DNA of 14,477 bases from Candidatus Eiseniibacteriota bacterium. Lineage in GTDB: Bacteria > Arandabacterota > Arandabacteria > JAGLYR01. Location of the stretch: NCBI GenBank assembly GCA_023132135.1, contig JAGLYR010000010.1, positions 1 to 14,477 of the forward strand. The letters run 5' to 3'. Each line of letters starts with the position of its first letter. Position 1 is the stretch's first letter. This document shows, one piece after another, positions 1,513 through 14,459 of the stretch. The notes under the pieces are model-generated. The model worked only from the letters and a program-made list of their open reading frames with translations. It made no database searches and was not told where the DNA came from. The translations under genes were made by a program, and so were the position numbers.

Positions 1513-1554
1513 TCACGGGCGGAGTGAGATTGATCACCTTCCAGTGCGGTGGGT

Positions 1555-3921
1555 ATGATGGCAATAAGAGGGCGGAAGAAGCCGGCGGCCGATGAGGCGT
1601 GGAGCAATCTGACCCAGGGCTTCGGCCGCACGAAGACCGGCAAGGGCGCATGCGCTTTTGTGGCGCGCAATCTGGCTTCTGCCCTGTCCCTGCTCAGCCT
1701 GACCATCTACACATCCGATCCGCAGGGGAAGTCCCTCCGTCTTGCCGCGGCGGAACCCGCGAGACAGAAACCCGATGACTCAGTCAGGGAACTTGCCGAA
1801 CGTGCGGTTTCCTCCCGGCGAGCCGTCGGCGATGTCATCGAGGTTCACAGAACAAAGAGGAAAATCGTACAGCGTTACGCCCACGCATTCCCGCTGACGG
1901 GGCTCGGGGAATCTTCAGGAGCCCTCGTTGCCGTCCTCGCCAGCACAAGGCGCCCCGGCCGGGGTGTTCTCCAGAAGCTTCAGATCTCGGCGAGTTTGCT
2001 CGCCGAGAGACTCGTTTGCCTTGCGGCCTTGCGCGGCTGTGAGACCTGCGAGGCCCGCTACCGGGACCTTTTCGAAAACATCCACATTCCCGTGGCCGCG
2101 TTTCGGATGCCGAGCGGCGAGCTGCTCACCTGGAATCCCAAGTTCGCCGAACTCACGGGTTACTCGGATGAGGAGATGGCGGTCAAGACCATGATGGACT
2201 TCATTTGCCCCGACGATGCACCCAAGCTTGCGAAACGGTTCCTGGATCGCAGGGCGGGCAAAGACGTCCCCGATGTCTACGAGATCTCCGGGATTCATGC
2301 CAGCGGCGAGAAACGGGATATCGAGCTCTACGCCCAGCTCTACTACGAACAGGGTGAGGTTGTGGGAACCCTCGTGGCGATGCTGGACGTCACCGACCGC
2401 AAGCGGGCGGAGCAGGAGCTGAGGGAGTCCAACGAGATTATCGGCATGAGTCCTGCAATTGCCTTCCTCTGGAGAAACGCCGATGGTTGGCCCGTTGAAT
2501 ACGTCTCTGACAATGTGGAAGAACTCTTCGGCTATTCGGCAGACGAGTTGATGTCGGGCAAAGTGCCCTACGCGAGGACGATTCACCCGGATGATCTGGA
2601 GAAAGTGGCAACGGAGGTCCTCAGGTACAGCAAGGAAGAGGGCCGGAGCGAATTCAGTCAGATGTACAGGATTGTCACCAAAGATGGTGCTGTCAGGTGG
2701 ATTGACGACAGGACATGCATCAGGCGAGACGAGAACGGGGAGATTACGCACTATCAGGGTATTGTGCTGGACATCACCGGCCGCAAGCGGATGGAGGAAG
2801 CGCTGCGGGAAAGTGAGGAGAAATTCCGCAAAATGGGCAGTTCCGCTTGGGATGCTCTTGTCATGATGGACGACGACGGGAGAATCTCCTTCTGGAATGA
2901 AGCGGCGGAGAAGATGTTCGGCTATTGCGAATCCGAGGCTTTGGGCAAGGAGCTGCACCCGTTTCTCGCTCCCGAACGTTACCTGAAAAGGTACAAAGAA
3001 GGCTTCGCCGGGTTCAGGACGACGGGCGAGGGACGTGCTGTCGGGTTGACGCTCGATCTGGTGGGCGTGAGGAAAGATGGTACGGAGGTTCCGATTGAGC
3101 TGTCTCTCTCGTCGGTGAAGCTGGCGGGCAAGTGGAACGCTATCGGGATAATGCGGGATGTCACGGAGCGCAAGCGAGCCGAGAAAGCGCTCAGGGACGT
3201 GAACACAGCGCTCCGTGCGGCGGACGAAATGAAGGATGAGTTCCTGTCCATGGTTTCCCATGAGCTGAAGGCCCCGCTGACCTCGATCAAGGGGTCGGCG
3301 GACCTGATGCTGTTGGGGAAGGAAGGGGAACTCACGCCGGGCCAGGCGCGTTTCCTCAACCTCATCAGCACCAGTACCACACGAGCAGACCGTTTGATCC
3401 AGGACCTGCTGGACCTGTCGCGGGTTGAGTCCGGTTTCCGCGAGCGACCGCCGCAGGACGTGAATCTGCAGCAGCTGGCCTACGAAGCGATCGATCCCAT
3501 GAAGCACCTTGCGCTGGAGAAGGACATTGCCCTCGATGTTGAGAACATGACAGCGCTGCCGGCGGTCCGGGCGGGCATGGATCAAATCCGCCAGGTTATG
3601 ACCAATCTCATTTCCAATGCTCTCCGGTTCACTGCCCAGGGGGGGCGCGTCTGGATTGACGGCCGGGTCGAGGGCAACGAGGTCATAGTGAGCGTCGACG
3701 ACACCGGCATCGGAATTACCCCGGAAAACCACGAGCGGATCTTCGAGAAATTCCACCAGCTCGGCCCGGGGAAAGTGCGGGAGGGTGGCACCGGTCTCGG
3801 CCTGACGATCTGCAAGCGGATCGTGGAGAACCACGGAGGGCGAATCTGGGTCGAGTCCAAGCCCGGCGATGGGAGCCGGTTCTGCTTCAGCTTGCCGATT
3901 CGGACAGGCGAGAAATCCTGA
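1555..3921 (+). CDS. Soluble GAF-PAS-PAS-PAS sensor histidine kinase
   Basis: This 788-aa sensor kinase autophosphorylates on His and would pass phosphate to a receiver, most simply the adjacent response regulator. Domains in order: a GAF-like N-terminus (about 15-155); three PAS domains (about 165-281, 293-411, 419-540), each ending in a DxTxRKR linker; a HisKA helix pair with phospho-acceptor H569 in SHELKAPLT; and an HATPase_c domain with N-box (N684), DDTGIGI G1 box (D716), IFEKF F-box and GGTGLGL G2 box (744-750). All catalytic boxes are intact. I see no membrane segment or signal peptide, so it should sense a cytosolic cue (redox, gas, small ligand), but the sequence does not identify the ligand. 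Start choice is uncertain: GTG 1549, ATG 1555 and ATG 1558 are adjacent and in frame, with no separated Shine-Dalgarno. The next gene, tldD, has its own promoter starting 5 nt after this stop codon. Confidence 0.9.
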   Translation: MMAIRGRKKPAADEAWSNLTQGFGRTKTGKGACAFVARNLASALSLLSLTIYTSDPQGKSLRLAAAEPARQKPDDSVRELAERAVSSRRAVGDVIEVHRTKRKIVQRYAHAFPLTGLGESSGALVAVLASTRRPGRGVLQKLQISASLLAERLVCLAALRGCETCEARYRDLFENIHIPVAAFRMPSGELLTWNPKFAELTGYSDEEMAVKTMMDFICPDDAPKLAKRFLDRRAGKDVPDVYEISGIHASGEKRDIELYAQLYYEQGEVVGTLVAMLDVTDRKRAEQELRESNEIIGMSPAIAFLWRNADGWPVEYVSDNVEELFGYSADELMSGKVPYARTIHPDDLEKVATEVLRYSKEEGRSEFSQMYRIVTKDGAVRWIDDRTCIRRDENGEITHYQGIVLDITGRKRMEEALRESEEKFRKMGSSAWDALVMMDDDGRISFWNEAAEKMFGYCESEALGKELHPFLAPERYLKRYKEGFAGFRTTGEGRAVGLTLDLVGVRKDGTEVPIELSLSSVKLAGKWNAIGIMRDVTERKRAEKALRDVNTALRAADEMKDEFLSMVSHELKAPLTSIKGSADLMLLGKEGELTPGQARFLNLISTSTTRADRLIQDLLDLSRVESGFRERPPQDVNLQQLAYEAIDPMKHLALEKDIALDVENMTALPAVRAGMDQIRQVMTNLISNALRFTAQGGRVWIDGRVEGNEVIVSVDDTGIGITPENHERIFEKFHQLGPGKVREGGTGLGLTICKRIVENHGGRIWVESKPGDGSRFCFSLPIRTGEKS

Positions 3922-3925
3922 TTTC

Positions 3926-3955
3926 TTGACACTGCCCTTTGCTCTTCCGTAAAAT
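3926..3955 (+). promoter_or_regulatory. Strong sigma-70-type promoter for tldD
   Basis: A perfect TTGACA (3926-3931) and TAAAAT (3950-3955, 5 of 6) are separated by 18 nt. The -35 box begins 5 nt after the kinase stop codon. Transcription would start near 3962, giving a leader of about 31 nt that includes the GGAGGG ribosome binding site before ATG 3993. This promoter overlaps the upstream in-frame TTG 3939 and ATG 3954, which argues against those starts. Confidence 0.7.
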
Positions 3956-3982
3956 GCGGCCTGCCTCATCCGCACGGCATTT

Positions 3983-3988
3983 GGAGGG
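3983..3988 (+). promoter_or_regulatory. Ribosome binding site fixing the tldD start
   Basis: GGAGGG lies 4 nt before ATG 3993. The alternative in-frame starts at 3939 (TTG) and 3954 (ATG) lie in or before the promoter's -10 region and have no such site. Confidence 0.7.
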
Positions 3989-3992
3989 CCGG

Positions 3993-5393
3993 ATGTCCCT
4001 GGATCTGTCCAAAGAAACCCTGACCGCGCTCCTGGAGATTGCCCTGTCAAAGGGCGGGGACTTCGCGGATGTTTTTGTGGAGCACACCCGCACGACGAGC
4101 ATCGGGCTCGGCGAGGACAAGATCAAGAGCATGTCCGTGAGCCTGCGCCAGGGACTGGGTGTGCGCGTGATTGATGGCGACGAGGTCCGGCTGGCCTTCA
4201 CGGACGAGCTCAACGAGAAGAAGATTGTGGATACCGCCCGGGCGGTTGCCGCGGCCGGAGGCGGCCACACAACGGTTGTCGGAGACCTCTGCGCAGAGAG
4301 CGCGCCCGACCGGTTTACTGTGGATGTTCCGCTGTACGATGTGGAGGCATCCCGGAAGGCGGACCTCCTGCGGCGGGCAAACCAGGCGGCGAGAGACTAT
4401 GATCCGAGGGTCACCGAGGTCGGCGTCTCCTACTATGATCAGGAGCGGAGCATTGCCGTCGCCAATTCGGAAGGGTGCTGGGTCCGGGACCGGCAGCCCC
4501 TGAACCTGTTGGCTGTTTCCGCAGTGGCCGTGGATGGGTCCCGGCGGCAGACGGGCTATGAGCGTGTCAGCGAGCGCAGGGGCTACGAGCTCTTCGAGGA
4601 CGTCCAGCCGGAATCCATCGGCCGGGAAGCTGCGCGGGAGGCGATTTCCATGCTCGGCGCCGGGGACGCCCCGGCGGGAGAGATGACGGTCGTCATGCCC
4701 CGTGGATGGGGTGGTGTGCTTCTTCACGAGGCGGTGGGCCATGGCTTCGAAGGTGACTTCGTGCGAAAGGGTACGTCCTTCTTCGCGGACAAGCTGGGGA
4801 AGCAGGTAGTATCGCCCCTTGTGACGGTGGTGGACGATGGCACTTTGCTCAACCACCGGGGGAGTCTGGGTGTGGATGACGAGGGGACGCCGACCCGGCG
4901 AACGGTTCTCATCGAGAATGGGATCTGCAGGAGTTTTCTCTTCGATCTCCACAACGCGCGGTTGATGGATGTTCAGTCTACGGGCAACGGACGGCGGGAG
5001 TCCTTCCGTCACCCCCCATTGCCCAGGATGACCAACACCTTCATGGTGGGCGGCGACGCGTCGGCGGACGACCTGGTTCGCGAGACCAGGTATGGGCTCG
5101 AGGTGCGGAAGCTGGGGGGTGGGCAGGTGGACATCACCTCGGGCAATTTCGTGTTCAAGGTGAACGAGGCATACTTGATTGAGAACGGGCAGACGACCCG
5201 GGCGGTCAAGGGGGCGACCCTGATCGGGAAGGGTCCCGAGATCATGACACGGGTGGACATGGTAGCTTCGAGGGAGGGTTGCGCCGCTGGTTCCTGCGGC
5301 AAGGGCGGCCAGATGGTGCCTGTTTGCGTGGGCGAACCGGGTCTGCGTATCTCGGCTATGACGGTAGGCGGGACTGGCCTGGATTATTCATGA
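3993..5393 (+). CDS. tldD: Metalloprotease subunit TldD
   Basis: This is the catalytic, zinc-binding subunit of the cytosolic TldD/TldE (PmbA) protease, 466 aa (the E. coli protein is about 480). The active-site helix reads LLHEAVGHGFEGDF, with the HExxxH ligands H245 and H249 and catalytic E246. The C-terminal CGKGGQ segment (C435) matches the region that supplies the third metal ligand in E. coli TldD. The family's S-T-G-N segment and the terminal MTVGGTG stretch are also present. In known systems TldD/E degrades unfolded peptides, acts on the CcdA antitoxin and matures some peptide natural products such as microcin B17. No peptide precursor or antitoxin gene is visible here, so a general peptide-degrading role is the safe inference. 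It has its own promoter, and pmbA follows after 112 nt. The last codons and the stop lie in the left arm of a long inverted repeat (5376-5438). Confidence 0.95.
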   Translation: MSLDLSKETLTALLEIALSKGGDFADVFVEHTRTTSIGLGEDKIKSMSVSLRQGLGVRVIDGDEVRLAFTDELNEKKIVDTARAVAAAGGGHTTVVGDLCAESAPDRFTVDVPLYDVEASRKADLLRRANQAARDYDPRVTEVGVSYYDQERSIAVANSEGCWVRDRQPLNLLAVSAVAVDGSRRQTGYERVSERRGYELFEDVQPESIGREAAREAISMLGAGDAPAGEMTVVMPRGWGGVLLHEAVGHGFEGDFVRKGTSFFADKLGKQVVSPLVTVVDDGTLLNHRGSLGVDDEGTPTRRTVLIENGICRSFLFDLHNARLMDVQSTGNGRRESFRHPPLPRMTNTFMVGGDASADDLVRETRYGLEVRKLGGGQVDITSGNFVFKVNEAYLIENGQTTRAVKGATLIGKGPEIMTRVDMVASREGCAAGSCGKGGQMVPVCVGEPGLRISAMTVGGTGLDYS

Positions 5394-5470: not shown

Positions 5471-5505
5471 GCACCACACCGCAAAATCTGCTGAAAGGTT
5501 TGCCC

Positions 5506-6855
5506 ATGAATGGGGACGCGAAATACCGAGAGCTTGCGGAGCGGATTGTCGAGCAGGCCGTCAAAGCCGGGGCGACGGAGGCCGAGGCCTTCCTGCAGTG
5601 GGGAGAGCGGGTCAATGTCCAGATCAACCGCGGGCGGGTTGAGAACCTGACCTGCGCGGGGTCCAAGGGAATCGGCCTTCGGGTCTTTGTCCACGGCAGA
5701 CTCGCGTTCATGTCCTCCTCGGATTTTGACGAGCACATACTCGCCGGGCTTGTTCACGAAGCCGTATCGCTGGCGTCGGAAGCTTCGCCGGAGCCCTACA
5801 ACGTGCTTCCAGATCCAGGCCCGGCCGGAGAGATTTCCGGACTGGACGATCCGGAGCTGAGTACCATCCCGCTTGAGAAGAAGATCGACTGCGCCAGAAA
5901 GCTGGATGCTCTGATCTTTGAACAGGGCCCGGAGATCCAGAACACCGAGGGCGCGGTGTACTCGGACGGGCGATTCGAGAACCTCATTGTCAACTCCAGG
6001 GGACTGGCCCACAGATGGAAGGAATCCTTCGCGTCGACCGTGGTCTCTCCGGTTGCCGGGAAGGACGGGCAGAAGCAGGTCGCGCACAGCTGGTCATCCG
6101 CCCGGAGATTCCGGGACCTGAAGCCTCTGGAGGAAATAGCGGCGGAGGCATGCCGCCGGGCGCGCATGTTGCTGGGCGGCGAGGCGGTGCCTACGCAGAA
6201 GGTTCCCGTGGTGATGGATTTCCGGGCCGGGGCTACGCTGTTCGAAGGACTGGCCTATGCAGTCAATGGCGAGAGCGTGTACCGCGACCGGTCGTTCCTG
6301 GCGGACAAACTCGGGAAGCGCATCGGGTCGGACCTCGTCAACGTGGTGGACGATGGAACGCTGCCCGGGGGAATGGGGTCGTCCCCGGTGGATGGCGAAG
6401 GGGTGCCGACATCACGGAAGTATGTGGTCCGCAGGGGCGTGCTGGCGTCTTTCCTGTACGACACCTACACGGCCCGGAAGGCGAACACAACGTCGACGGG
6501 CAACGCAGCCCGCAATTCCTACGCCAGCCGGCCCGTGATCGGGGGATTGAACTTTTACCTGGAGGCCGGCGACCGCACTCCCGAAGACATCATTTCCGAG
6601 ATCGACAAGGGCTTCTACGTTTTCCGAACGATGGGCGGGGGACCCGATGCTGTGACGGGTGATTTCTCCGCCGGGGCCGCCGGTGTGTGGATTGAAGGTG
6701 GAAAGCTGACCCGCCCCGTTGCGAAGGTGACCATTGCCGCCGGCATGCTGGACATGCTGGCGGGAATCGATGCCGTGGCCAACGACCTCATCCTCGATTC
6801 TCCAACCGCGACACCGACGTATCGGATTCGGGAGATGATGGTGAGCGGAGTTTAG
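5506..6855 (+). CDS. pmbA: Metalloprotease subunit PmbA/TldE
   Basis: This 449-aa protein (E. coli PmbA/TldE is 450 aa) is the non-catalytic partner of TldD. In the related heterodimer both subunits share the fold, but only TldD has the zinc site. Consistent with that, the place of HExxxH reads AGATLFEGLAYAVNGESVYR and has no metal-binding helix. The SFLADKLGKRI segment after it parallels TldD's FFADKLGKQV, and the STGNAARNSYA and TGDFSAGAAGVWIEGG motifs typical of PmbA are present. The start is ATG 5506, with GAAAGG (5493-5498) 7 nt upstream; the in-frame TTG at 5500 has no such spacing. I saw no separate promoter, so it is probably cotranscribed with tldD through the intervening hairpins. 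The gene ends in a long repeat-rich convergent intergenic region. Confidence 0.93.
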   Translation: MNGDAKYRELAERIVEQAVKAGATEAEAFLQWGERVNVQINRGRVENLTCAGSKGIGLRVFVHGRLAFMSSSDFDEHILAGLVHEAVSLASEASPEPYNVLPDPGPAGEISGLDDPELSTIPLEKKIDCARKLDALIFEQGPEIQNTEGAVYSDGRFENLIVNSRGLAHRWKESFASTVVSPVAGKDGQKQVAHSWSSARRFRDLKPLEEIAAEACRRARMLLGGEAVPTQKVPVVMDFRAGATLFEGLAYAVNGESVYRDRSFLADKLGKRIGSDLVNVVDDGTLPGGMGSSPVDGEGVPTSRKYVVRRGVLASFLYDTYTARKANTTSTGNAARNSYASRPVIGGLNFYLEAGDRTPEDIISEIDKGFYVFRTMGGGPDAVTGDFSAGAAGVWIEGGKLTRPVAKVTIAAGMLDMLAGIDAVANDLILDSPTATPTYRIREMMVSGV

Positions 6856-6859
6856 CCGC

Positions 6860-6939
6860 GACAAGGTGACAAGGCGAGGGCGCGAGGGCGTGACAAGGCG
6901 AGAGCGCGACAAGGCGACAAGGCGAGAGCGCGATGTAGC
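6860..6939. repeat. Phased octamer tandem array
   Basis: This is ten consecutive 8-bp units in strict phase, each beginning with GA. In order: GACAAGGT, GACAAGGC, GAGGGCGC, GAGGGCGT, GACAAGGC, GAGAGCGC, GACAAGGC, GACAAGGC, GAGAGCGC, GATGTAGC. The array starts 4 nt after the pmbA stop codon. On the - strand it reads as low-complexity LVALS/SPCRLV peptides, which I regard as spurious. The last two unit types recur at 12889-12904. Confidence 0.85.
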
Positions 6940-7044: not shown

Positions 7045-7075
7045 CGTCATCCCCGCGCACGCGGGGATCCATCCT
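7045..7075. repeat. CCCCGC-GCGGGG intergenic hairpin repeat, copy 1
   Basis: This 31-nt unit begins CGTCATCCCCGCG and ends GGGGATCCATCCT. ATCCCCGCG (7049-7057) and CGCGGGGAT (7060-7068) form a 9-bp stem with a 2-nt centre. It matches copy 2 except in the loop and the last bases. Its form resembles widespread dRS3-like (ATTCCC-GGGAAT) intergenic repeats. Confidence 0.8.
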
Positions 7076-7101
7076 CACGCCTTACGCCTCACGCCTCACG
7101 T
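7074..7101. repeat. Four 7-bp tandem repeats
   Basis: CTCACGC, CTTACGC, CTCACGC and CTCACGT follow without gaps. They fill the space between the two hairpin repeats, and the last unit runs into the second hairpin copy. Only four units are present and there is no spacer structure. Confidence 0.75.
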
Positions 7102-7129
7102 CATCCCCGCGAAGGCGGGGATCCATCTT
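7099..7129. repeat. CCCCGC-GCGGGG intergenic hairpin repeat, copy 2
   Basis: This is a direct repeat of 7045-7075, beginning CGTCATCCCCGCG and ending GGGGATCCATCTT. ATCCCCGC (7103-7110) and GCGGGGAT (7115-7122) form an 8-bp stem with a GAAG loop. It lies downstream of the - strand glycosyltransferase gene (stop at 7189-7191), so it could also act on that transcript's 3' end. Confidence 0.8.
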
Positions 7130-7188: not shown

Positions 7189-8403
7189 CTACGAACTCCT
7201 ACCGCTCGCCCAGATCCGGCGCACGAACTCACAGGCCCCGTAGACTGCCAAGATTATCAGCAGGGGCGTTAGCGGGCTGCGGTGTCTTGCATTGGCAACG
7301 AGTAACGAGTGGGCAACAGTCAGGTACGCGATGAAGCCTGACAGAATGAGATATCGGCCTCTTCTAAGAGAAAACGCCGCGCCGGCTAACGCTGGAACGA
7401 GAACAACCCAGAACATTGGGGCGCTGGTCTTGGCCAGAATCCTCCGGCAAAGACCGACGCCCCGCGGGCTCATCTGCTTCCTGACGTCGATGGTCGGATA
7501 GAGGCCGGAGGCCGACCAGAATTTGGAGAATCGCCGCCCGCAATGCTTGGTGTAGTAGGCCGGGTCCGACCGGATAGATTTCAACCCCTCGCGCATCCCC
7601 TCCCGCTGCCTTTGAACCGGGTTTTCAATCTTCTGCCAATAATCCCTGCTGAACTCCCTTATTGGGATGTCGGGGGTGTTTGTAAGCCACAGATTGAAGG
7701 CGGCGGTGTTGTCGATGAGCATGAACCCGCCGTACCGCGCGTAGTTGCGAATGGTCCATGGGGAAATGACAAGCAGGAAAGTCACACCCGCCAGCAGCAC
7801 GGTCTTGCGGGGAATGCGGATCCTCCGGGACAGGATCAGAAAAACGATCAGGACCAACGCGAAGTATCCGGCCGCCACGGCCCGGGTCAATGCCGCCAAC
7901 CCCCAGAACACAGCGCTGACGAGAATCCACTTCCTCTCCCCCGGTTCGTTCAGTGCTCGAGCCACAGCCCATATGGCAAGCAACAGGAGGGGTGTGAAGA
8001 TGAACTCAGTCAGAATCAGCCAAGGTCCGATGATGGAAGCGGGATAGATGGCAAGAATCCCTGTGCAGACTAGGGCAAGTTTGGAGCCAAGCAGCCTCCT
8101 CGCCAGTAGAAAGCATGCCCACAGCCCGAGAATGGACAACAGGGCTTGGGTGATTCTGATTGCGTTGACGCTCGGACCAAAGAGTCGAACTACTGCGGAG
8201 AGGAAACCCACGTAAACCGGCGGGCGAACAACGTAGTCCTCGGGAAGGGTTCCTTGCCCAGCCAGTGCCACGGCCTGCCTGTAGTAGAACTTCTGGTCAA
8301 AGGCGATGTCGATGTCGGTGTGTTGAAGCGCAAATGTCAAGCGCAGACCTGCGCCAAGAACGAGTATGGCAAGAAGCAAGATGATCTCGCGCCTCTTCGA
8401 CAA
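7189..8403 (-). CDS. GT39/PMT-like membrane glycosyltransferase
   Basis: This is a polytopic inner-membrane protein of 404 aa that would transfer a sugar from a polyprenyl-phosphate donor on the periplasmic side (GT-C fold, PMT_2/ArnT-like family). The N-terminus is a basic SKRRE stretch followed by a membrane helix (about 6-26). The first external loop is acidic (DIDIAFDQKFYY, about 30-41), as expected for the catalytic loop. Several further hydrophobic helices follow. The family hallmark SPWTIRNY is at about 214-221 and is followed by FNLWLTNTP. The C-terminal ARHRSPLTPLLIILAVYG matches the conserved end of the family. The start is TTG 8403, with GGGGGAAG 3 nt upstream. The longer TTG start at 8436 lacks a ribosome binding site and lies in a small palindrome. 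A good - strand promoter is at 8460-8488. It is the only - strand gene here, divergent from another membrane protein. Acceptor and donor are unknown. Confidence 0.85.
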   Translation of the reverse strand: MSKRREIILLLAILVLGAGLRLTFALQHTDIDIAFDQKFYYRQAVALAGQGTLPEDYVVRPPVYVGFLSAVVRLFGPSVNAIRITQALLSILGLWACFLLARRLLGSKLALVCTGILAIYPASIIGPWLILTEFIFTPLLLLAIWAVARALNEPGERKWILVSAVFWGLAALTRAVAAGYFALVLIVFLILSRRIRIPRKTVLLAGVTFLLVISPWTIRNYARYGGFMLIDNTAAFNLWLTNTPDIPIREFSRDYWQKIENPVQRQREGMREGLKSIRSDPAYYTKHCGRRFSKFWSASGLYPTIDVRKQMSPRGVGLCRRILAKTSAPMFWVVLVPALAGAAFSLRRGRYLILSGFIAYLTVAHSLLVANARHRSPLTPLLIILAVYGACEFVRRIWASGRSS

Positions 8404-8406
8404 AAA

Positions 8407-8414
8407 CTTCCCCC
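8407..8414 (-). promoter_or_regulatory. Ribosome binding site for the GT39-like gene
   Basis: On the - strand this reads GGGGGAAG, followed by TTT and the TTG start at 8403. It decides for that start over the upstream in-frame TTG 8436, which has no purine-rich site. Confidence 0.55.
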
Positions 8415-8459
8415 GTTCTGTGATTGTACCCCTCAAGGGGGCACAGCCAGACTACGATG

Positions 8460-8581: not shown

Positions 8582-8632
8582 ACGGGGAAGATCGCCCGTC
8601 AATTCGGCGCACGTGTCGTGTGGACTTCGGAG

Positions 8633-8638
8633 AGGAGG
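8633..8638 (+). promoter_or_regulatory. Ribosome binding site fixing the GTG 8644 start
   Basis: AGGAGG lies 5 nt before GTG 8644. The upstream in-frame GTG 8620 has no such site and would place this sequence inside the coding region. Confidence 0.65.
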
Positions 8639-8643
8639 ATGGG

Positions 8644-10365
8644 GTGCGGGCCTTGCAACGTAGTTCGCTCCACGGCGTCTGGTGGGACGCCATGGTCATC
8701 GTCTTCCTTACCATCGTAGCAGCCCTTGCCGCCCTTCCAGCTCCTTGGCGTTGGGCTACCCACCTGCCCAATGTCCGCCCTACGGACGAACTGGAATTGC
8801 TTTGGCATTTCTGGCACGTGAAGCAATTCGTCTTGGGAGATGTCCAGGAGCTGTTCCACACGAATCTCATCTACTACCCGACCGGCACAACGCTGGCGTT
8901 TGGAACTATGCCGTTGACCACCGCTTTTGCAGCGGTGCCTGTCATGCTGTTGCTCGAGGGTACGCGAGGACTGCTGCTCTCGTACAACCTTGCTGTCCTC
9001 GCAAGCCTTGTCCTCACCGGCTATTCCGTTTTCCTGCTGGTGCGCCTGATCACACGCTCGAATCTGGTGGGTCTCACCTGTGGAACGGCTGCCGCGTTCG
9101 TACCATTCAACTTCGCATATCTTGGACAGCTCCACCTCCTCGTTTTCTACTGGGTGCCGCTATTCCTGTTTTTCCACCTGCGGCTGTGGGAGTCGCCATC
9201 GAAACGGGACGCTCTCTTTGCGTCATTGGCAGCCATGGGTTGCGCGTTCAGTTCCCTAACTTACTTCGCCCATCTCGTCGGAGCGTGGCTCGTTTTCGTG
9301 TTGGTGGGGTCTGCTCTTGAGTGGGACCGAGTGCGGAGGCGGCGACCGTGGGCAAGTCTCGCCCTCGTTGTGGCTGGCATCGCGGCGGCGAGTGTCCTTG
9401 CCCTAGTGCCACTCGAAAGAGCTGGCCCGATTGCCCAGATTCAGCACATGTCGACAGATCTATTGCCGGTGGGTACGGACCCGGTGTACTTTATCACTCC
9501 TCAGGAGGGCTCGGTGCTCGCCAATCTGGCGAGCCGCATTGGGATTGCCAGTGCCCCGTCAATGCACGGCGCGGCGTACATTGGCGTGACGCTCATTGTC
9601 TTCTCCGTTGTCGGTGTGGTCACCTCTCGCCGGCGGCAACGTTGGGTTTGGGTCGCTGTTGCCGCCGTGTTTGCCGTGCTTGGGCTCGGGGCATCGCTGA
9701 AGTGCGGGGAGAAGCTGTACCTGCAGGACATGCTGCCGTACGCATGGTTGCGTGATGTGGTCCCCTTCTTCTCGACCGACCGTGCGCCGGCCCGATTCAT
9801 GAAGACTTCCCATCTTGCTCTGACAGTTTTGGCAGGTTGGGGGTTCCTCTTCGTGCTTGACTACGCGCGGAGGAAACTGGGGCGAACTGCCAGCCTGCTG
9901 GTTCCACTTCTCGTGGCACTCGTTGTGGTGGAGTATGTGCCCACCGGTGTTGAGTCATGGGAACCTCGGATTCCGGGTGCATATAGCATTGTGGCCAGCG
10001 ACGCGGATTCCATCGCAGTCTGTCCAGTGCCTCTGCAGTACGGTGTCAAGAGGAGCTACATGTTCTATCAAACCTTCCATGGCAAGGCGATAACCGGTGG
10101 GAAAATTGCACGCCACTCGGTGGGCGCGGGCTTTCTGCATGACGGCGCCCGTATTGAGAAGCAGGTATACTCGTTGTCGGGCCGGCGCGACCTACCGCGG
10201 GTTGAGGAGATGAGATGCGTCTTGACTGCGAATGGGGTGAAGTACGTTGTCCTGCACCGAATCGGGCGCCCCCAATCCCTGTTCGATAGAGATCGGACAC
10301 GGCTTGGGCAATGGTTGGAGGAGATTGACGAATCGGAGGACGCCGTGGTTTTTCGGGTGTTCTAG
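8644..10365 (+). CDS. GT-C-like polytopic membrane protein
   Basis: This is a 573-aa inner-membrane protein of a GT-C/YfhO-like type found in envelope-sugar loci; its exact reaction is unknown. The first membrane helix is at about 16-34. It is followed by an external loop with PTDELELLWHFWHVKQFV (about 46-63; acidic D48/E49 in the place of GT-C catalytic residues) and LFHTNLIYYPTGTTL. About ten further hydrophobic segments follow. FFSTDRAPARF (about 375-385) matches the R-x-P-x-RF motif I associate with this group. A soluble C-terminal tail (about 433-573) contains MFYQTFHGKAITGGKIAR, resembling the conserved Q-T-x-H-G-K-P-x-x-G-G segment of the group. The start is GTG 8644 with AGGAGG at 5-nt spacing. 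The PHP-domain gene follows after 79 nt on the same strand and may be cotranscribed. The divergent neighbour is a second membrane glycosyltransferase, which suggests a shared polysaccharide or lipid-sugar pathway. Confidence 0.8.
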   Translation: MRALQRSSLHGVWWDAMVIVFLTIVAALAALPAPWRWATHLPNVRPTDELELLWHFWHVKQFVLGDVQELFHTNLIYYPTGTTLAFGTMPLTTAFAAVPVMLLLEGTRGLLLSYNLAVLASLVLTGYSVFLLVRLITRSNLVGLTCGTAAAFVPFNFAYLGQLHLLVFYWVPLFLFFHLRLWESPSKRDALFASLAAMGCAFSSLTYFAHLVGAWLVFVLVGSALEWDRVRRRRPWASLALVVAGIAAASVLALVPLERAGPIAQIQHMSTDLLPVGTDPVYFITPQEGSVLANLASRIGIASAPSMHGAAYIGVTLIVFSVVGVVTSRRRQRWVWVAVAAVFAVLGLGASLKCGEKLYLQDMLPYAWLRDVVPFFSTDRAPARFMKTSHLALTVLAGWGFLFVLDYARRKLGRTASLLVPLLVALVVVEYVPTGVESWEPRIPGAYSIVASDADSIAVCPVPLQYGVKRSYMFYQTFHGKAITGGKIARHSVGAGFLHDGARIEKQVYSLSGRRDLPRVEEMRCVLTANGVKYVVLHRIGRPQSLFDRDRTRLGQWLEEIDESEDAVVFRVF

Positions 10366-10444: not shown

Positions 10445-12829
10445 ATGATGGCCGCTGGTCCTTGGCAGGTAGCTCGAATTCTGCGGAAAGGCCTCGCAAT
10501 CTCGGCCATTGGCTTGCTTGGGCTACTACTTGTCCAGTGCCAAGCGGCTCTCGGCCAGGATGCGCCCACGAGAAGGCGCCTCCCCTTGCGTGCGATGAAA
10601 GACCTCAGCATCGCTGCGGACCACTACAAGCTCGGGGATGACCTCGGTGGTCGAGTCGAGTACCCCGCGATTGCTGTCGACCATACCGGAGTTCCTTGGG
10701 TTTTCTGGGATCGATGCGATCGGGAAGAGAGCAGAGTCTACACGTGCCGTATTGAGAACGGTCGTCAGATGACTCCAGAACCCGTTAGCCCACTCGGCCA
10801 TGTTGCCTTCGAAAGCGCAGCGGCTGTCGACAGTTCGGGGAACATCTGGGTCTCCTGGGCGTGGTGGCATGACGGAGAATGGGATATCGAGGGAAGGATC
10901 TTTGACGGAAGCATCTGGCGTTCCGCCAGACAACTGGTGGCGGAGCGTGGGTCGGATCTCTCGCCGTCCTTGGCAGCGGATTCCGAGGGGCGGGTCTGGC
11001 TGGTCTGGCAGGCGTACCGGGGAGAGGGTCTTGAAATCCATGCCAAGTACTGGAAGCACGGCGTGGAATCGGAGACCAAGGTTGTCAGTCTCGGTACAGC
11101 CTGCAGTAACTACCGGCCGGCCATCACCGCTGGACGCGACGGTAGTGTGTGGGTGATTTGGGATGGGTGGAAGGACAAGAACTACGAGATATTTGCGAGC
11201 CGCTACACCGATGGCTCTTGGAGCCCACCGCGCAATATCAGCATTAATCCCGGGTATGATTGCTATCGCCCGCAGTGTGCGCCGGATCCATCGGGCGGGA
11301 TCTGGGCAACGTGGAACATCGTCACTCGCGGAGAGACGGAATGGGGAACTGCAGCTGCGAGGGTTACTGAAGAATCCGTCGAACCGGTACTCCTCCCGCC
11401 GGGATTGGTCTCCAAAGCGACGAACTTCGCAAGCATTGCTCTGGATGCAACGGATCGCCCTTGGATCATCTGGCAGGAACGACAGCCGGGGAGGCGATGG
11501 AACGCCTTGGCCTGCGTTTTTGACGGAAACCGGTGGGCCGGACCCTACCCGGTCTGGGAGCAGGGGCCCGAGGCCAAGCAGTTCTCGCCCTGTGTGGCTC
11601 GAGGCCCCGGCGGCGACCTCTGGGTCGCATGGGCGCGGAAGCACCCCATGGCAGCGCGGATCGCCGGGGGCTGGATTGGTGAACTGGAGCAGAGCTCTTT
11701 CGCTGCTGAGCCGGTACGTTGGGAAACCAGAACTCCCCTGGAGTTCGGTGCCACGGCGGACTCCAAGCGTAGCCACGCGATCAAAGCAGAGGGCGAGGAG
11801 TACCATCTATACTGGGGAGATCTCCACAACCACAGCGAACTGTCGGATGGACGCCAGCCGCTAGACCACTGTTTTGCATTGGCACGGGATGTCTACGCCC
11901 TCGATTTCGTTTGCATGGCTGACCACGATGCCAACGTAACCGAGGGCAAATGGAGACTCACCCAGGCGATCTCATCCATCATGAATGAGCCTGGTCGCTT
12001 CGTGACTCTTGCCGGCTATGAGTCGTCCTACAGATGGGCAAGAGCTGGCGCCGGCCACCGTAACATCGTCCATCCTGGTGATGAGGGGGCAATCTGCCAT
12101 TACCGGGAGGGGTTTACACTGCCGGAGCTGCTTCATTGTGTGAGAACGAACAAGGGAATTGCCATTCCTCATCACATTGGTCGCTGGTTCGCACCCATCG
12201 ACTGGGAAAGCTTCGATCCCGCCGTCCAGCCGATCGTTGAGATTTGCTCCGTCCATGGCATCTTTGAGTATTTCGGAAATCCGTGGAAGCCTCGTCCGGA
12301 GTATCTTCCTGCGCCGGCCGTGGACCAGCACAAGACACCGGTGGAGGGTTCCTTTGTGCAGGATGGGTGGGCGCGCGGTCTCCGCTTCGGCGTGATTGGA
12401 TCCACCGACTCCCACATCAACTACTCCTACGGCATTCGGAGGATGGCTCTGGCCGCCGTGTATGCGAAGGACCTCACTCGCGAGGATCTGTTCGACGCGT
12501 TTCGGGCCAGGCGGACCTACGGGACAACCGGCGAGCGGGTTTTTCTCGATTTCAGGGTCAACGATCACATCATGGGCGAGGAGTTTACTCTTCGCCGAGG
12601 CAAGTCGGTTACCGTACGCGTAACCATTGAAGCACCCGTGGTGGTCAAGCGAGTGGATATCGTCCGCGACAACGAGACTGTTCACTCAAGAACTGTGAAC
12701 GGCAGACAAGTGAATTTCTCTTGGAAGGATGCCGAACCATCCTCGTTTTCCACCTATTACTATGCCCGCGTTGTGATGGAAGAGGATAACTACGCTTGGT
12801 CCAGCCCGGTATGGGTAGATTGGGAGTAG
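10445..12829 (+). CDS. Exported seven-bladed propeller-PHP metallohydrolase fusion
   Basis: This 794-aa protein starts with a basic, then hydrophobic signal segment (about 11-38, ending ALGQ), so it is probably secreted or periplasmic. Residues about 70-400 hold seven repeats of 50-53 aa, each built on AxDxxGxxWVxW, with tryptophans at 85, 135, 185, 236, 287, 340 and 393. This is what a seven-bladed beta-propeller would show. Residues about 453-700 form a PHP-type metal-dependent hydrolase domain of the CehA/McbA or DUF3604-like kind: YWGDLHNHSELSDG (H461, H463, D468), MADHD (D493, H494), GYESS (E526), IPHHIG (H576, H577) and STDSH (D655, H657). The C-terminal 100 residues look like a beta-sandwich. 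The metal ligands appear intact, so a phosphoesterase or other hydrolase activity is plausible, but the substrate is unknown. The start is ATG 10445 (ATG 10448 is adjacent), with GAAGGG 11 nt upstream. The stop TAG is also the first three bases of an inverted 20-nt repeat. Confidence 0.85.
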   Translation: MMAAGPWQVARILRKGLAISAIGLLGLLLVQCQAALGQDAPTRRRLPLRAMKDLSIAADHYKLGDDLGGRVEYPAIAVDHTGVPWVFWDRCDREESRVYTCRIENGRQMTPEPVSPLGHVAFESAAAVDSSGNIWVSWAWWHDGEWDIEGRIFDGSIWRSARQLVAERGSDLSPSLAADSEGRVWLVWQAYRGEGLEIHAKYWKHGVESETKVVSLGTACSNYRPAITAGRDGSVWVIWDGWKDKNYEIFASRYTDGSWSPPRNISINPGYDCYRPQCAPDPSGGIWATWNIVTRGETEWGTAAARVTEESVEPVLLPPGLVSKATNFASIALDATDRPWIIWQERQPGRRWNALACVFDGNRWAGPYPVWEQGPEAKQFSPCVARGPGGDLWVAWARKHPMAARIAGGWIGELEQSSFAAEPVRWETRTPLEFGATADSKRSHAIKAEGEEYHLYWGDLHNHSELSDGRQPLDHCFALARDVYALDFVCMADHDANVTEGKWRLTQAISSIMNEPGRFVTLAGYESSYRWARAGAGHRNIVHPGDEGAICHYREGFTLPELLHCVRTNKGIAIPHHIGRWFAPIDWESFDPAVQPIVEICSVHGIFEYFGNPWKPRPEYLPAPAVDQHKTPVEGSFVQDGWARGLRFGVIGSTDSHINYSYGIRRMALAAVYAKDLTREDLFDAFRARRTYGTTGERVFLDFRVNDHIMGEEFTLRRGKSVTVRVTIEAPVVVKRVDIVRDNETVHSRTVNGRQVNFSWKDAEPSSFSTYYYARVVMEEDNYAWSSPVWVDWE

Positions 12830-13103: not shown

Positions 13104-14459
13104 ATGCGCCGGATCTTCTCTGTTGTCATCGCTGTCGTCGTTGTTGCCGTCGTGGTTCTGGGTCTCCAGAACGGCTGGTTCGAGAAGGAGCCGTACAACG
13201 TCATCATCATCTCAGTGGACACCCTCCGTCCCGATCATCTTGGTTGCTACGGCTACGGTTCTCCGACCTCCCCGGCGATTGACGCGCTCTTTGACCGCGG
13301 CGTGCGATTTACCCGGGCCGTCTGCCAGACGCCGACCACGGGGCCCTCGTTCTGCTCCATTATGACAGGCGCGTATCCCCACACCCACGGTTCGCTTCAG
13401 AACGCGATGCCGCTGCGCGATGACATTCAGACCTTGGCGGAAGTTCTCAAGGAGCACCAGTATCACACGGCGGCATTCGTGAGCAGCTACACCGTCTCGG
13501 ATGAATCATCGGGGCTGGGCCGGGGATTTGACCGCTTCGACGATGAGTTTGCCGGCGAGGAGAGAAGCGCCGGGTGCACCAACGATAGCCTGTTTGCCTA
13601 TCTGGAGGATCGATCCCATACTCCTCTGTTCATCTGGATCCACTACTTCGAACCTCACGGGCCCTACATCGGGCATTCGGACTCGAGAATCCACCCCGCG
13701 TCGCCGCGATCCGAGGCGCCTCTGAATATGATGGAAGACAACGTCGTGCAGCACCTGCCGTGGGTTTCGCCGAAGCTGGGACTCGATCACTATGTTCGAC
13801 TCTACGACGGCGAGATAGCGCACGTAGACCGCCGGATCGGCATCTTGCTGGGCGAATTGCAGAAGAGGAGTCTGCTGGAGAATACACTCGTTGTTTTTCT
13901 CTCCGATCATGGAGAGAGCTTCGATCATGGTCTCTACTGTCGCCATGGGCTCTTTCTCTATGAGTCCTCCATTCGGATTCCTCTTGCCTTCGTCTTCCCG
14001 GCGGGGAAGCATGGAGGCGGAATCGTGGAGGGCGTTGTGCAGAGCATCGACATCCCCTGCACGATCTGTGACTTCCTGGGGTTTCCACCACCGGAGGGTG
14101 CTGAGGGACGAAGTCTCCTGCCCATGATCGAAGAGGGAGAGAGCCATCCCGGGACGGCGTTTCTGGAGCGGCGGCGGTACGAGGAGGATAACCGTTTCGG
14201 AGTTACGGGCAGTCGACATGCGATCCGCACCGCCGAGTGGAAGTACATCCACAGCACGGAGGAGCCGGACGAGCTGTACAATCTCCAGCTGGATCCGGGC
14301 GAACTGCGCAACCTGGTTGAGGAAGAACCGGACCGGGCTGCGTCCATGCTGGATGATCTCCAGGCATGGATCGGGGAAGCCGGGGTTTGCTGCGAGGAAT
14401 TGCCGGAGCTGAGTGATGAAGCGCGGGAGAAACTCAAGGCGTTGGGGTATATACAATAA
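13104..14459 (+). CDS. Membrane-anchored sulfatase/alkaline-phosphatase superfamily protein
   Basis: This 451-aa protein belongs to the sulfatase branch of the alkaline phosphatase superfamily. An N-terminal helix (about 5-22) would anchor it, with the enzyme domain outside the cytoplasm. Metal and active-site motifs: D39 in IIISVDTLRPDHLGCYGY, H180 and H185 in WIHYFEPHGPY, D268/H269 in LSDHGESF and H281 in CRHG. The nucleophile segment reads TPTTGPSFCSIMTGAYPHTHG. Aligned to C-x-P-S-R of sulfatases, the modifiable Cys is T79 and the Arg is F83, so formylglycine cannot form. It is therefore more likely a phosphoesterase or phosphotransferase-type member, or an unconventional sulfatase. The C-terminal ELYNLQLDPGELRNL and LKALGYIQ are typical of the family. 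The start is ATG 13104, with GGAG (13095-13098) 5 nt upstream. It follows the propeller-PHP gene after a repeat-rich gap and may act on the same envelope polymer. Confidence 0.88.
   Translation: MRRIFSVVIAVVVVAVVVLGLQNGWFEKEPYNVIIISVDTLRPDHLGCYGYGSPTSPAIDALFDRGVRFTRAVCQTPTTGPSFCSIMTGAYPHTHGSLQNAMPLRDDIQTLAEVLKEHQYHTAAFVSSYTVSDESSGLGRGFDRFDDEFAGEERSAGCTNDSLFAYLEDRSHTPLFIWIHYFEPHGPYIGHSDSRIHPASPRSEAPLNMMEDNVVQHLPWVSPKLGLDHYVRLYDGEIAHVDRRIGILLGELQKRSLLENTLVVFLSDHGESFDHGLYCRHGLFLYESSIRIPLAFVFPAGKHGGGIVEGVVQSIDIPCTICDFLGFPPPEGAEGRSLLPMIEEGESHPGTAFLERRRYEEDNRFGVTGSRHAIRTAEWKYIHSTEEPDELYNLQLDPGELRNLVEEEPDRAASMLDDLQAWIGEAGVCCEELPELSDEAREKLKALGYIQ

Follow-up and report, generated by a model that had tools for sequence, protein, structure and literature searches.

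What would an exported metallohydrolase do with a β-propeller joined to its N-terminus? This question is raised by one gene in a stretch of 14,477 nucleotides from Candidatus Eiseniibacteriota (the whole stretch is called the window here; contig JAGLYR010000010.1, assembly GCA_023132135.1). A first-pass annotation made from the sequence alone had described its product as an intact protein combining a seven-bladed propeller with an exported PHP-type metallohydrolase. This architecture is supported by the open reading frame (794 amino acids with an ATG start, intact), the structural model and the family scores, with export being predicted. The domain content, the complete set of metal ligands and a likely export signal are thus established by computation (Table 1). 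We propose that the protein is an exported PHP metallohydrolase which uses the propeller as a targeting module, and we give this reading a probability of about three in four.

Table 1. Coordinates of the propeller-PHP fusion gene, its parts and neighbouring genes in the window
Feature	Position	Strand	Basis
PMT_2-type GT-C membrane glycosyltransferase	7189..8436	-	Pfam; best-match linkage
Polytopic membrane protein, 581 aa, 79-bp gap upstream of the fusion	8620..10365	+	no Pfam/NCBIfam match
Whole gene, predicted exported propeller-CehA/McbA metallohydrolase, 794 aa	10445..12829	+	ORF, NCBIfam, AlphaFold2 model
Likely N-terminal signal region, aa 1-36	10445..10552	+	sequence; model helix 6-35
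Seven-bladed β-propeller, aa ~55-408	10607..11668	+	motif repeats, model, fold matches
Low-confidence linker, aa ~409-444	11669..11776	+	pLDDT about 44-54 across much of the linker
PHP catalytic domain, aa 452-697, with ten ligand residues H461-H657	11798..12535	+	NCBIfam, profile and alignment
C-terminal β-rich tail, aa 698-794	12536..12826	+	NCBIfam model, AlphaFold2 model
Alkaline-phosphatase-superfamily 'sulfatase-like' protein	13104..14459	+	Pfam; active-site motif

The N-terminal half contains seven W[VILAFM]xW motifs at residues 85, 135, 185, 236, 287, 340 and 393 with a spacing of 50-53 residues, exactly the positions given in the first-pass annotation, and one further motif is present at residue 790 in the C-terminal tail. 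Shuffling of residues 28-440 (5000 shuffles) produced a mean of 0.55 and a maximum of 4 such motifs. An AlphaFold2 model built with 58 aligned sequences (pLDDT 86.0, pTM 0.87; a single-sequence model with pLDDT 41.7 was discarded) revealed repeated β-strands across residues ~55-407, with confidence below 50 only at residues 1-3, 36-52, 408-422 (linker) and 661-664. Residues ~52-412 match solved seven-bladed propellers with Z-scores of 29-37 over ~300-340 residues (Foldseek, VIA-align), CylK being matched at Z 36.6, and the seven-bladed lectins of the PLL/PHL/BP39L type at Z ~28-31 over ~300 residues. The closure of the ring, on which the annotation had staked its proposal, is borne out, with an open propeller seen neither in the model nor in the fold matches.

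Other fold matches include rhamnose-glucuronate lyase, BT3686-type glycoside hydrolases, sialidases, polysaccharide lyases and integrin alpha, and many of the matches are lectins and carbohydrate-active enzymes. Sequence identity to the matched propeller structures is 7-15%, and therefore the fold is uninformative on the ligand. No function can be read from a seven-bladed fold alone, and the ligand of many propellers is a protein instead of a glycan. The C-terminal propeller of CylK and the PLL-type lectins share the fold of the window propeller at 10-15% sequence identity, but we know of no PHP domain in either. The only propeller-type Pfam match in the fusion protein is a weak one to Reg_prop, no Pfam family of sialidases, glycoside hydrolases or polysaccharide lyases was detected in it (the likeness to these enzymes being one of fold, at 8-15% identity), and a phmmer search of PDB sequences with the single protein returned only chance matches to antibodies. 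Very long propeller-like proteins related to the propeller half are encoded by G001:C162 and G001:C42 (open frames of 1415-1417 amino acids).

The hydrolase half belongs to the CehA/McbA family of metallohydrolases. NCBIfam model NF038032 matches residues 456-792 with 97.8 bits (cut-off 80) over profile positions 3-315 of 315, that is, the whole model, and it also matches all 21 fusions collected in this work at E 1e-3. The Pfam family DUF3604 (PF12228) gave a partial match (44.6 bits against a gathering threshold of 20.4, best stretch 668-703) and was matched in 21 of 21 fusions. The PHP domain and the β-rich tail noticed earlier are both present, and the tail ends in the CehA/McbA family motif YYxxRV..AWSSPxWV. 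However, the tail is not an extra module, because NF038032 covers both parts, which makes them one known family unit. The window protein thus has the PHP domain, β-tail and all metal ligands in common with CehA/McbA proteins, and differs from them in having a seven-bladed propeller as its N-terminal half. A paralogue in the same genome (G000:C201, L003; 715 amino acids) matches DUF3604 and has a PHP region 37% identical to that of the window protein, but its N-terminal region lacks W-x-x-W repeats.

In the model, strands and helices alternate across residues 451-697; the listed fold matches are all propellers, with no PHP structure among them. A distant profile match was found to the PHP structure 3E38 (E 1e-8, 38 bits). 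The ligand pattern HxH, D/H, H, E, H, H, D-x-H is present in the fusion protein as H461, H463, D468, H494, E526, H538, H576, H604, D655 and H657. These residues are invariant across the 21 fusions except for H463 and D655, each conserved in 20 of 21, so the earlier impression of an apparently complete metal site holds. In the PHP-superfamily diesterases Sb-PDE and No-PDE, metal analysis revealed trinuclear zinc, with H61, H63 and D260 at the alpha site, H142 and H203 at the beta site, E135 as a bridge, and D68, H93 and H262 at the gamma site (PMC11656708). The window ligands were mapped on these enzymes and 3E38 as H461/H463/D655, E526 and D468/H494/H657, with H538, H576 and H604 as beta-site candidates by sequence mapping. 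Sb-PDE, No-PDE and 3E38 share this ligand pattern, but they are short proteins without a propeller and have only distant profile similarity to the window protein.

These relatives point to two kinds of chemistry. If 3E38, the closest solved PHP relative, and the homologous diesterases Sb-PDE and No-PDE are taken as the guide, the fusion might scavenge nucleotides or small organophosphates as a phosphodiesterase or phosphatase, with the propeller serving for oligomerisation or as a lid and not for targeting. We treat this as a tentative alternative, as the profile match is distant and CehA and McbA are carbamate hydrolases acting on carbamate pesticides (PMC8292978), so that a phospho chemistry cannot be taken for granted. 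Somewhat less probable in our estimate is a carbamate or carboxylester hydrolase similar to CehA and McbA, which would act on natural carbamates or on O-carbamoyl or O-acyl groups of sugars. The family score above the cut-off and the location in the PHP domain of the His residues required for CehA and McbA activity (PMC8292978) favour this possibility; on the other side, the family is named after two pesticide-degrading enzymes, with the natural substrates of its members largely unknown, and the likeness to CehA comes from a family model. For the exported PHP metallohydrolase proposed here the bond type is not fixed, because CehA and McbA cleave carbamates and the Sb-PDE relatives phosphodiesters.

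By inspection, the N-terminus of the fusion protein likely represents a Sec-type signal; residues 6-35 form a helix with a hydrophobic core in the AlphaFold2 model. The sole Cys of this region (residue 32, LLLVQC) lacks a canonical lipobox, and lipoprotein status is therefore unsupported. Several homologues start with twin-arginine, Tat-type signals (Pfam TAT_signal in 2 of the 21 fusions), and export is predicted to be common to the fusion homologues, with a differing route.

Relatives were collected by an alignment-based contig scan seeded by fusions, from which the best 80 of 239 loci were retained; a scan with the single protein gave no matches. The same domain order is present in approximately 20 other genomes from the class of the window, Sumerlaeota, Planctomycetota (Phycisphaerae) and Neomarinimicrobiota, and was not found on the plasmids searched. 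Within the phylum, the window genome and four class relatives carry it (5 of the 8 genomes examined, including both of high quality). The first-pass annotation had named a common and already assigned domain order as the finding that would speak against it: the order does recur and is thus not unique, but it is without an assigned function. Among the best 80 of 239 loci, most family members that are not fusions have another N-terminal region, commonly 250-450 amino acids in length and free of W-x-x-W repeats. In an unrooted maximum-likelihood tree of 80 PHP domains, the 21 fusions lie on one side of a single branch (support 99/98), and the own-genome paralogue falls outside this group. The grouping was recovered in all 200 bootstrap trees, and none of 500 shuffles was as low. 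Because the fusions form one group, the propeller-PHP combination probably arose once.

The two halves have diverged to different extents. Among fusions, identity to the window protein is 17-22% in the propeller and 37-46% in the PHP domain, and 13 of 354 propeller columns are conserved at the 90% level versus 52 of 246 in the PHP domain. The faster divergence of the propeller would fit a conserved enzyme carrying a drifting binding or targeting module, and points to no particular ligand. It would thus suit a binding role as such in the suggestion of the first-pass annotation, by which the propeller could hold on to a glycan or the cell envelope and offer substrate to the hydrolase. Conservation also bears on whether the propeller might itself be catalytic (a lyase, sialidase or CylK-like module) with the PHP domain as an accessory, as could be imagined from the carbohydrate-active enzymes and CylK among the fold matches. 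We consider this most improbable given the low sequence identity to those matches, the small number of conserved propeller positions compared to the near-invariant PHP ligands, and the nature of the positions conserved in the class of the window, where Trp, Gly, Pro and aliphatic residues predominate. In a sister group of 16 members, a set of polar residues late in the propeller is conserved (GRASHNF, DGWGGRG, ARRDL). This polar set is absent from the class of the window, and the propeller may therefore serve the two groups in different ways.

The gene neighbourhood was compared in the same genomes. When the window GT-C protein was searched in four class relatives, the top match was the GT-C gene adjoining the fusion in 4 of 4, despite changed gene order. 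The five genomes contain 11-21 PMT_2 matches each, and a nearby PMT_2 gene alone is therefore weak evidence; the argument rests on best-match linkage. The GT-C linkage is real, within the class of the window only. In two class relatives (L062, 9081-13298; L143, 7416-11668) the fusion directly follows pdxJ and converges on the GT-C gene, with PdxJ assigned by Pfam in L143 and by sequence likeness in L062. The 581-residue membrane protein has no counterpart adjoining other fusions at E 1e-6. Elsewhere in the window, genes for a response regulator-GGDEF protein (325-1446) and a PAS histidine kinase (1549-3921) lie upstream of adjacent PmbA/TldD-type genes (3939-5393 and 5500-6855). This pair is followed by an intergenic 24-bp tandem repeat (3.2 copies, 6857-6933) and two copies (7047-7071 and 7101-7125) of the palindromic dispersed repeat TCATCCCCGCGNANGCGGGGATCCA, which occurs 12 times in the genome versus 0 for the reversed control.

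The gene downstream of the fusion is less closely tied to it. Its product has TTGPSF in place of the formylglycine motif C/S-x-P-S-R, with Thr for Cys/Ser and Phe for Arg, and the linked genes of class relatives likewise have Thr at the Cys/Ser position. A formylglycine sulfatase (C/S-x-P-x-R) was rejected for this product, and judging by the motif, it and its linked relatives would be better called alkaline-phosphatase-superfamily enzymes. In 3 of 4 class relatives such genes are present a few kb or less from the fusion (the fourth contig ends close by), each genome has 11-25 of them, and a 60% identical paralogue of the window protein is encoded on G000:C285. Orthologous synteny was rejected, since the best matches of the window gene in relatives are copies other than the linked ones. 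The suggestion that GT-C and sulfatase-like genes stay near the fusion thus holds for GT-C inside the class, is weaker for the sulfatase-like genes, and fails as a general property, since neither linkage was seen outside the class. Fusions of other phyla have varied neighbours (GH4, xylose-isomerase-like, symporter, acyltransferase and URO-D-like proteins) with no common theme. One fusion (L090) adjoins a calcineurin-like phosphoesterase; this gene, and the Thr-type phosphatase-superfamily gene of the window, would suit the scavenging phosphodiesterase considered above.

We found no description of a propeller-PHP fusion in the literature searched, from which subscription journals were mostly absent. 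The first-pass view that this is not a characterised family therefore stands for the fusion but not for its hydrolase half, which has a family name. The fusion is a coherent, uncharacterised architecture of the CehA/McbA family. We place the protein in the CehA/McbA (DUF3604-like) branch of the PHP superfamily and envisage it as an exported, metal-dependent hydrolase in which the propeller would take the place of the non-propeller N-terminal region of most relatives. Water activated by its multinuclear metal centre would break an ester-type bond, which may be a phosphodiester, a carboxylester or a carbamate, and the fast-evolving propeller would keep the enzyme docked to a surface glycan or a polymer of the envelope. 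In the class of the window, the linked GT-C glycosyltransferase might make or modify the substrate. That this substrate is an envelope glycan is a possibility we hold loosely. More speculative still is the full proposal, in which an envelope-glycan esterase or phosphodiesterase would be paired with the linked GT-C for surface-polymer editing, and the sister-clade propeller would keep a separate ligand site formed by the polar set.

If true, this would give a candidate phylum a previously undescribed pair of enzymes for editing surface polymers. The propeller pairing, the apparent single origin and the one GT-C gene kept alongside in one class delimit a defined subfamily of the widespread CehA/McbA (DUF3604) hydrolases, whose natural roles are largely unknown, and provide it with a concrete substrate hypothesis, an envelope glycan.
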